From contig NZ_SMLB01000024.1 of the NCBI RefSeq assembly GCF_004349105.1, positions 1 through 64,000 on the forward strand: 64,000 nucleotides of DNA, given 5' to 3'. Origin of the DNA: Jiangella aurantiaca (lineage in GTDB: Bacteria > Actinomycetota > Actinomycetes > Jiangellales > Jiangellaceae). Below the pieces are notes generated by a model. It searched no databases, was not told the origin of the DNA, and worked only from the letters and a program-made list of their open reading frames with translations. Positions 3,416 through 42,083 of the stretch are shown piece by piece (the first letter of the stretch is position 1; each line of letters begins with the position of its first letter). The translations under genes and the position numbers were made by a program.

Positions 3416-3495
3416 CCGCGTTGATCTTGGAGTTGTTCGGCAATTGCGGGGTGAAATGTCCGATAGATGGCCGAACAACTCCAAGATCAACGCGG
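3416..3495. repeat. Dispersed palindromic repeat family A, copy 1
   Basis: 26-bp perfect inverted arms ccgcgttgatcttggagttgttcggc / gccgaacaactccaagatcaacgcgg around a 28-nt loop; near-identical loop in copy 2 at 7075. Confidence 0.85.
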
Positions 3496-5890: not shown

Positions 5891-6802
5891 CTAACGGCGG
5901 CGGCCGGTCGCCGTCATCACCACTGCCGACCCGATCAACACGGCGCCGGCCAGTCCTGCCGCGCCGAGCCGCTCGTCCAGCACGACGGCGCCCAGCGCGG
6001 CCGCCGTGAGCGGCTCGAGCAGCGAGAACAGCGCCGCCGAGCCGGTCGCGACGGTGCGCAGGCCGGTGAAGTACAGCCCGTACGCCAGCGCCGTCGGAGC
6101 CAGCCCCAGGAACAGCAGCAGCCCGATCGCCCCGGCGTCCAGGCCGACGCCGACGCCGCCGGTCAGCGCCGCGATCGGGAGCAGCAGCAGGCCGCCCGCG
6201 CAGAACGAGAGGCCCGCCGTCGGCAGCGGCCCGATGTCGTCGACCGGCCGGGCGCCGAGCATCGTGATGGCGGCGAAGCCGGCCGCCGAGGTGAGCGCGC
6301 ACACCGTCCCGGCCAGCACCGCCGCCGGGTCGCCGGCCCCCGGCGTGCCCACCAGCAGCGCGAGGCCGGCGATCGCCGTCGCGATGGCCACCAGGATGCG
6401 TCCGTCCGGCCGCCGCCGGCCGACGCCGCTCTCAGCGAGCACGACCAGGACGGGCGACGCGCCCAACGTGACGAGTGTGGCCAGGCTGACCGACGTCAGC
6501 GAGACGGCGGCGAAGTAGCAGCTCTGGTACAGCGCGGCCAGCGCGCCGAGCAGTAGCAACCGGCGGACGCCGCGGCCGGAGAGGCGCAGCCGGTGCAGCC
6601 GGCCGGTCGCCAGCAGCCAGACGACGACCAGCCCGCCGCCCACCAGCAGCCGGAACGCGGCGACGGCCAGCACGCCGAGGCCGGTGCGATCGATGAGCAG
6701 TGCCCCGGTGAGGCCGCCGGTGCCCCAGAGGACGCCGGCGCCCATGACGGAGAGCAGGTCGGTGCGCGCCGACGATGGCGCGAGGGTTCGAGTGTGTTCC
6801 AC
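5891..6802 (-). CDS. EamA/DMT family transporter
   Basis: Ten-TM hydrophobic [41 protein letters not shown]...; GTG at 6802 preceded by AGGAG (the longer ORF start at 6853 lacks comparable support). Confidence 0.88.
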
Positions 6803-6960
6803 GGATCGGCTCCTGCGACGTGAAGAGGGATGAGACGCGCGGGAGCGGGACACGCAGGAGTGCGCGAAGAAGCCGGCCGCCCGTCAGAGGGGCAGCCGGC
6901 GCGCTGAGACGCGCCCCGCTAGGAAGCGGAGGGCGGGCTGACCGGGAACAACCGATGCAT
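6803..6960 (-). promoter_or_regulatory. Candidate attenuator / 5' leader of the EamA transporter gene
   Basis: TATGAT -10-like box 7 nt upstream of ATG at 6960; hairpins 6898-6915 and 6872-6900 share 3 nt; arms 6853-6860 and 6810-6817 could sequester the SD. Confidence 0.6.
6919..6960 (-). CDS. Candidate leader peptide MHRLFPVSPPSAS
   Basis: 13-codon ORF with ATG at the predicted +1 (leaderless) and stop 3 nt before the first hairpin. Confidence 0.5.
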   Translation of the reverse strand: MHRLFPVSPPSAS

Positions 6961-7074
6961 GAGCGGGATCATACGGGAACGGCGGGCGAGCGACCGGCGC
7001 GGCACCGGCCCGGCCCCGGTCGACGACGATCGCGCCTGGCCACCCTCCTTGTGCGAGCACCTCACCGCACGCAA

Positions 7075-7148
7075 TGTTGATCTTGGAGTTGTTCGGCCGT
7101 TGCGGGGTGAAATGTCCGATAGATGGCCGAACAAGTCCAAGATCAACA
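7075..7148. repeat. Dispersed palindromic repeat family A, copy 2
   Basis: tgttgatcttggagttgttcggcc...ggccgaacaagtccaagatcaaca; loop tgcggggtgaaatgtccgatagat shared with copy 1. Confidence 0.85.
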
Positions 7149-42040: not shown

Positions 42041-42083
42041 GTTGATCTTGGAGTTGTTCGGGTATAGCTACTCCACGATCAAC
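42041..42083. repeat. Dispersed palindromic repeat family A, short copy 3
   Basis: gttgatcttggagttgttcgggtatagctactccacgatcaac; left arm identical to copies 1 and 2, conserved loop missing. Confidence 0.7.

Follow-up and report, generated by a model that had tools for sequence, protein, structure and literature searches.

This analysis concerns a short leader that precedes a gene for an EamA-family transporter on the minus strand of a 64,000-nucleotide (nt) stretch of the Jiangella aurantiaca genome (contig NZ_SMLB01000024.1; hereafter the window). Comparison with related loci suggests that the leader encodes a proline-rich peptide at which a ribosome could stall, and that four RNA segments around and below its reading frame could translate ribosome position into access to the Shine-Dalgarno (SD) sequence of the transporter gene. 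The elements at the locus, all on the minus strand, are as follows.

6968-6973 (-): -10 element TATGAT, ending 7 nt before the ATG at 6960
6919-6960 (-): small open reading frame (mini-ORF) for the leader peptide MHRLFPVSPPSAS of 13 residues, followed by a stop codon; family consensus [MV]HRxFP[IV]TPPPxx-stop, with PPS here
6926-6931 (-): segment S1, CTCCGC (CCCCGC in relatives), at the final Pro/Ser codons; partner of S2
6910-6920 (-): segment S2, AGCGGGGCGCG, overlapping the stop codon; alternative partners S1 or S3
6898-6915 (-): hairpin GGCGCG-TCTCAG-CGCGCC, found in Jiangellaceae only; possible antiterminator
6872-6900 (-): terminator-like 11-bp hairpin GCCGGCTGCCC...GGGCGGCCGGC, found in Jiangellaceae only; shares 3 nt with the preceding hairpin
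6853-6860 (-): octamer CTCCTGCG, in the window a perfect complement of CGCAGGAG (6817-6810); not conserved
6844-6854 (-): segment S3, CGTGTCCCGCT; pairs with S2 over 11 bp, two of them G-U
6838-6846 (-): anti-SD part of S3, GCTCCCGCG; pairs with S4 over 8 bp with one mismatch, and has GCT in common with the S2:S3 helix
6809-6817 (-): segment S4, CGCAGGAGC, including the SD AGGAG; partner of the anti-SD at 6846-6838
5891-6802 (-): EamA-family transporter gene (PF00892), with a GTG start at 6802

The initial annotation of this region had named TATGAT (6973-6968), the ATG at 6960, the mini-ORF, both hairpins, the octamer pair and the GTG at 6802 with its AGGAG, and every one of these sequences lies where it had been placed; the 3-nt overlap between the hairpins at 6915-6898 and 6900-6872 was likewise confirmed. 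An earlier GTG, at 6853, was considered as the start of the EamA gene but dropped, since the SD and start that are conserved lie at 6817-6802. The encoded protein matches PF00892 in two stretches (E = 3.3e-29); in NCBIfam it falls below the cut-offs for named exporters, and neither that comparison nor a sequence comparison with the PDB indicates a specific substrate.

The leader RNA of the window folds better than 200 of 200 dinucleotide-shuffled versions (z = -4.2), and an Rfam search with it gave no match above the gathering threshold. With its PPS, the peptide is the sole copy lacking PPP among the leaders examined; in addition, Ser replaces the Thr that otherwise comes before this position (6919-6960), a substitution seen in no other copy of the family. 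Such a PPS-type leader may stall ribosomes more weakly.

Conservation of the leader and its linkage to EamA genes

The mini-ORF was found in all genomes that bear an orthologue of the EamA gene in Jiangella (12 genomes) and its sister genus Phytoactinopolyspora (5 genomes), where the -10 box and the stems recur as well and the Ile/Val-Thr before the prolines is retained. A covariance model detects a single strong leader in each of 17 of the 22 genomes of the order, always at the EamA gene, and the next-best matches are at chance level. The RNAalifold consensus of 15 close sequences showed little covariation because these sequences are too similar, and cross-genus comparison was therefore needed. 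One Jiangella leader (L004) carries a one-base deletion in the proline codons that shifts its frame to give MHRLFPITPPPLPSGARPSAPAAL.

Scanning 84,980 species with the exact pattern start-HRxxP[IV]TPPP yielded 76 matching stretches, 72 of which are near-identical mini-ORFs of 12-17 codons ([MV]HRxxP[IV]TPPPxx-stop) in about 17 named actinobacterial genera; the four non-actinobacterial matches lie in long ORFs without an EamA gene and are chance matches. The genera include Jiangella, Phytoactinopolyspora, Nocardia, Pseudonocardia, Actinophytocola, Kibdelosporangium, Prauserella, Saccharomonospora, Actinosynnema, Actinocrispum, Herbihabitans, Solihabitans, Plantactinospora, Micromonospora, Catenulispora and Trebonia, and further matches come from metagenome-assembled genomes (MAGs) of Streptosporangiales and other groups and from one record labelled Rhodococcus rhodnii. 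The leader of this last record (L090, strain NRRL B-16535) is almost the same as the Kibdelosporangium aridum leader (L126), and the label or assembly of the record may therefore be wrong.

Seventy of the 72 mini-ORFs precede an EamA gene, the other two being cut by contig ends, and all 72 have a TAnnnT box 6-8 nt before the start codon. Since the letters of the search pattern cover neither the promoter nor the ORF length nor the downstream gene, these three features constitute independent evidence. In 8-kb stretches around the loci, EamA alone recurs as a neighbour across many genera. A consensus promoter scan of the window found no sigma-70 -35/-10 pair, so the promoter is assigned from the conserved -10 element by itself; judged by the position of this element, the transcript probably starts at the ATG at 6960 and would be leaderless.

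Sampling by way of the transporter rather than the peptide extends the family. In Streptomyces, each of the 30 orthologues examined is preceded by a leader that ends with VLPPP, two or three more codons and a stop. In two Streptomyces loci (L021 and L156) the leader seems to be immediately preceded by a second EamA-like gene, and downstream in L021 a pyridoxamine-oxidase-like gene and a gene for a GntR/MocR-like regulator were noted, in each case from reading the translations only. In a class-wide sample of EamA genes drawn irrespective of the peptide, roughly half of the 32 distant homologues have a leader with PPP, one to three codons and a stop (e.g., MTYRTGLFVTPPPYAS, MTPFTVSPPPAR and MQTFLTPPPPAV); the leaders of L173, L179 and L184, which the -10 filter of the script had missed, were identified by eye from the sequence. 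Two more loci come from the Nocardia-type family (VNPRFRCTPPPTS and VHRIYKVTPPPAR), in which the spread is patchy, with a close EamA in only 6 of the 201 genomes sampled. A search for plasmid copies yielded only two Streptomyces plasmids with a distant EamA. In total, the core architecture of mini-ORF, -10 box and stems recurs in about 100 loci; the conserved ORF has 11-17 residues and varies synonymously.

The synonymous variation bears on what has been selected. Across the 30 Streptomyces loci, PPP is always preceded by Val and Leu, for which different codons are used (GTG, GTA, GTC and GTT; CTG, CTT and CTC), and invariant residues despite synonymous codons imply selection on the peptide beyond its proline codons or RNA pairing. 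This pattern favours arrest assisted by the nascent chain over a simple gauge of tRNA-Pro. A selected arrest motif, FXXYXIWPP, has been described (PMC13410324), and its aromatic residue at -4 and Ile at -2 before Pro-Pro resemble F-P-[IV]-T-P-P in the present family and Y-K-V-T-PPP in L199; the motif was selected in the laboratory and has W at -1, where the leader family has T, and we take the resemblance as a lead only.

A probable four-segment RNA switch

In erm-type translation attenuators, S1 pairs with S2, S2 with S3 and S3 with S4, the last of which contains the SD. When the 72 leaders are compared side by side, one constant plan emerges that follows the same segment logic, with a transporter as the product and presumed arrest at PPP. 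S2 starts in the stop codon of the mini-ORF (AGCGAGGTG in Nocardia, AGCGGGGCC in Pseudonocardia and AGCGGAGCG in a Streptosporangiaceae MAG) and pairs with the anti-SD segment S3 about 60 nt downstream. S3, the complement of S2, sits about 36-48 nt upstream of the SD (CACCTCGCT, GGCCCCGCT and CGCTCCGCT), resembles the end of the mini-ORF (S1) and continues directly into TTCCGCGAC, a complement of the SD region GTCGCAGGAG.

The pairing of S2 with S3 was assessed over 100 loci against controls in which the partners were exchanged between genera or shuffled. Matched duplexes reach -21.5 kcal/mol, compared with -17.7 for swapped and -16.7 for shuffled ones (p = 3e-16), and the base-pair table of 63 distinct helices contains many G-C/C-G, A-U and G-U exchanges at most positions. 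S1:S2 is likewise better matched than swapped (p = 8e-4). Sequence comparison thus documents a conserved peptide, a constant promoter position, S2:S3 covariation and linkage to EamA, and the conserved core very probably is an erm-like translation attenuator built from S1:S2, S2:S3 and S3:S4(SD). In four loci (L102, L105, L115 and L116) extra, partly hairpin-forming DNA appears to have been inserted between the mini-ORF stop and S2; an S2-like segment persists further down, and the switch may or may not have kept its function.

The initial annotation had envisaged a leaderless mini-ORF, attenuation of EamA by ribosome position and possible stalling at proline, and the conservation of the mini-ORF and the covariation of S2:S3 in relatives lend support to this outline. 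It had also proposed that the octamer CTCCTGCG at 6860-6853 blocks the SD. Sequestration of the SD is indeed predicted class-wide, with a different segment: the octamer is absent from Jiangella loci L004, L007, L008, L011 and L012 and therefore is not the conserved anti-SD, a role that falls to GCTCCCGCG at 6846-6838, pairing with 6817-6809. The long-range pairing of S2 (6920-6910) with S3 (6854-6844) and the local S1:S2 hairpin had gone unnamed.

Predicted mechanism and position of the stalled ribosome

From these patterns we infer a transcription start, stalling, induction and a direction of regulation. The transcript would begin at the start codon of the mini-ORF, as the position of the -10 element implies. 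In a leader free of ribosomes, folding predicts that S1:S2 would form and S3 would lock the SD of the EamA gene, so that little transporter would be made. A ribosome slowed at the Pro-Pro(-Pro) codons would mask S1 and release S2, which could then bind S3, weaken the S3:SD lock and permit translation of the transporter; a ribosome that has passed the prolines and reached the stop codon would mask S2 instead, and the lock would remain closed. Conceivable triggers, all of which would prolong formation of the Pro-Pro bond, are low activity of elongation factor P (EF-P), a shortage of Pro-tRNA, an inhibitor of the peptidyl transferase, or a small molecule that is sensed jointly with the nascent chain. 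Thus, we propose that a ribosome-arrest translation attenuator, switched on by a stall at the proline run, controls the EamA transporter, and assign this proposal a probability of roughly 0.84.

The position of the stall was approached by a simulation in which only the RNA downstream of the ribosome was folded as the ribosome was moved codon by codon. In 42 of 65 MHR-type loci (p about 1e-7), the SD is most open when the 3' edge of the ribosome is still 3-6 nt short of the end of the stop codon; the mean opening is 0.16 at that edge, 0.06 before and 0.07 after it. Together with a footprint of 16 nt, this edge would place the P site at codon 8-9, where the first Pro-Pro bond forms.

Several points weigh against the proposed attenuator. 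The leader peptide of the window itself reads PPS, not PPP, and the peptide positions in the genome scan were fixed by the search pattern. The 16-nt footprint is an assumption, the predicted opening of the SD is modest (from a mean of 0.06 to 0.16, and just 0.07 in the window), and the simulation shows no such peak in Streptomyces. Moreover, S3:S4 separates weakly between matched and swapped partners (p = 0.025), the S2:S3 and S3:SD helices overlap by three nucleotides only, and the p-values given here overstate the support because related genomes are not independent samples. Given the small effect, the value of 0.07 in the window, the lack of a peak in Streptomyces and the three shared nucleotides, we grade the predicted stall at the first Pro-Pro bond (Pro9) as no more than supported.

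A broader version of the proposal is that the leaders form a class-wide family of arrest peptides and would represent a previously undescribed, dedicated ribosome-based sensor for an exporter. Either EF-P activity itself or one particular small molecule in the cytosol, the compound that the EamA protein transports, would then determine the proline stall. We put this forward tentatively, at somewhat below even odds.

Alternative explanations

The alternatives address partly overlapping questions, of mechanism and of inducer, and their likelihoods are not required to sum to one. The leader could respond to a drug, with a ribosome-targeting antibiotic stalling the ribosome at T/S-Pro-Pro and EamA serving as an efflux pump, as in the erm or cmlA leaders. 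A four-segment architecture is typical of drug-inducible translation attenuators, the EamA superfamily includes exporters, no metabolic neighbours are conserved, and the distribution is patchy, as in the Nocardia-type family. Nevertheless, we know of no drug that stalls specifically at PPP. Furthermore, polyproline is described as an intrinsic stall in a review of context-specific inhibitors, and no association with resistance or biosynthesis clusters was noticed. We regard this explanation as possible and rather unlikely.

The proline codons could instead gauge charged tRNA-Pro, as trpL does for Trp, with EamA moving proline or a related compound. Such amino-acid-supply leaders characteristically carry a run of identical codons ahead of the stop, mycobacterial leaderless polycysteine leaders are reported to act in this way (PMC9031893, citing Canestrari 2020), and the EamA gene follows closely on proS in the window, as it does in some other Jiangella. 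This linkage to proS is local, however: outside Jiangella proS is not adjacent to the leader, and no proline genes recur nearby. Induction of an exporter by shortage of its own substrate would also make little sense, and the residues other than proline (I/V and T, or V and L) vary scarcely more than the prolines do, although their codons change synonymously. We regard a supply attenuator as unlikely.

Transcription attenuation of the trp type, with the hairpin at 6915-6898 as antiterminator and that at 6900-6872 as terminator, is improbable as the main mechanism. In Jiangellaceae the two hairpins and the 3 nt that they share are conserved, with a few compensatory changes (the terminator-like stem has two pairs with changes on both sides), and TTTTTTT follows the stem in L014. 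In the window the tail, TTCTTCG, is weakly U-rich and a consensus scan calls no terminator-like site; furthermore, conservation of the hairpin pair ends with Jiangellaceae. Outside this family the segment between S2 and S3 is variable, whereas S2:S3 and the SD lock are conserved. Of the attenuation logic in the initial annotation, the choice of structure by ribosome position is supported, but the hairpin pair, confined to Jiangellaceae and without a good U-tract in the window, is not supported as the conserved switch, which would mainly be a translation attenuator. The pair is a possible local addition in Jiangellaceae, in which the terminator-like hairpin between S2 and S3 may contribute a transcriptional layer.

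That the mini-ORF is a reinitiation or coupling device boosting basal EamA translation, with no role as a sensor, is very improbable: leader genes have been proposed to raise downstream translation (PMC4833913), but here about 115 nt and stable stems separate the mini-ORF from the EamA start, and the invariant PPP and the covarying segments would be left unexplained.

Relationship to known leader systems

Apart from the erm-type attenuators, the attenuator proposed here has several described counterparts. The mycobacterial leaderless polycysteine short ORFs (Canestrari et al. 2020, cited in PMC9031893 and PMC13236596) are likewise actinobacterial and leaderless, with a run of one codon and downstream attenuation; they combine a cysteine run with cysteine genes, whereas the present family combines a proline run, preceded by conserved non-proline residues, with an EamA transporter. 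The mgtL/mgtP leaders of Salmonella (PMC6460261) are also short proline-codon ORFs that control a transporter and are sensitive to EF-P and Pro-tRNA, but the mgtL prolines are interspersed, the ORF sits within a long leader RNA, the outcome is transcription attenuation of Mg2+ transporters, and sequence and hosts are unrelated. CruR of Bordetella, a RAPP arrest upstream ORF (PMC9426467), similarly has Pro-Pro near its C terminus, and its arrest keeps the downstream gene on; it is, however, a 145-residue copper-sensing protein with Rho-dependent control and without a four-segment RNA switch. Finally, leader peptides of amino-acid genes in Streptomyces and Corynebacterium (PMC1262725, PMC8079986) share the actinobacterial setting (leaderless in Streptomyces lividans) and the alternative hairpins, and the passages searched in these two papers mention neither a proline leader nor an EamA target.

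The leader would work like the nearest described systems and is a member of none of them by sequence, codon or target. Literature searches, including literal searches for the peptides, found no description of it within a coverage that leaves out most subscription journals and all preprints, and absence from the literature searched is no proof of novelty. The family appears to be an overlooked regulatory leader that spans actinobacteria, including Streptomyces, and is tied to one type of transporter. Identification of the signal for stalling at PPP would reveal the inducer and probably the substrate as well. Furthermore, studies of how stalling depends on the nascent chain and on EF-P could draw on this natural set of conserved polyproline leader peptides, which are short and differ between lineages in the residues before PPP.

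Other features of the window

The window also contains a palindromic repeat of about 72 bp with arms GTTGATCTTGGAGTTGTTCGGC, for which no match is expected by chance. It is complete at 3420-3491 and 7076-7147, the latter copy lying between proS and the leader, and is represented by a single arm at 42041-42062.
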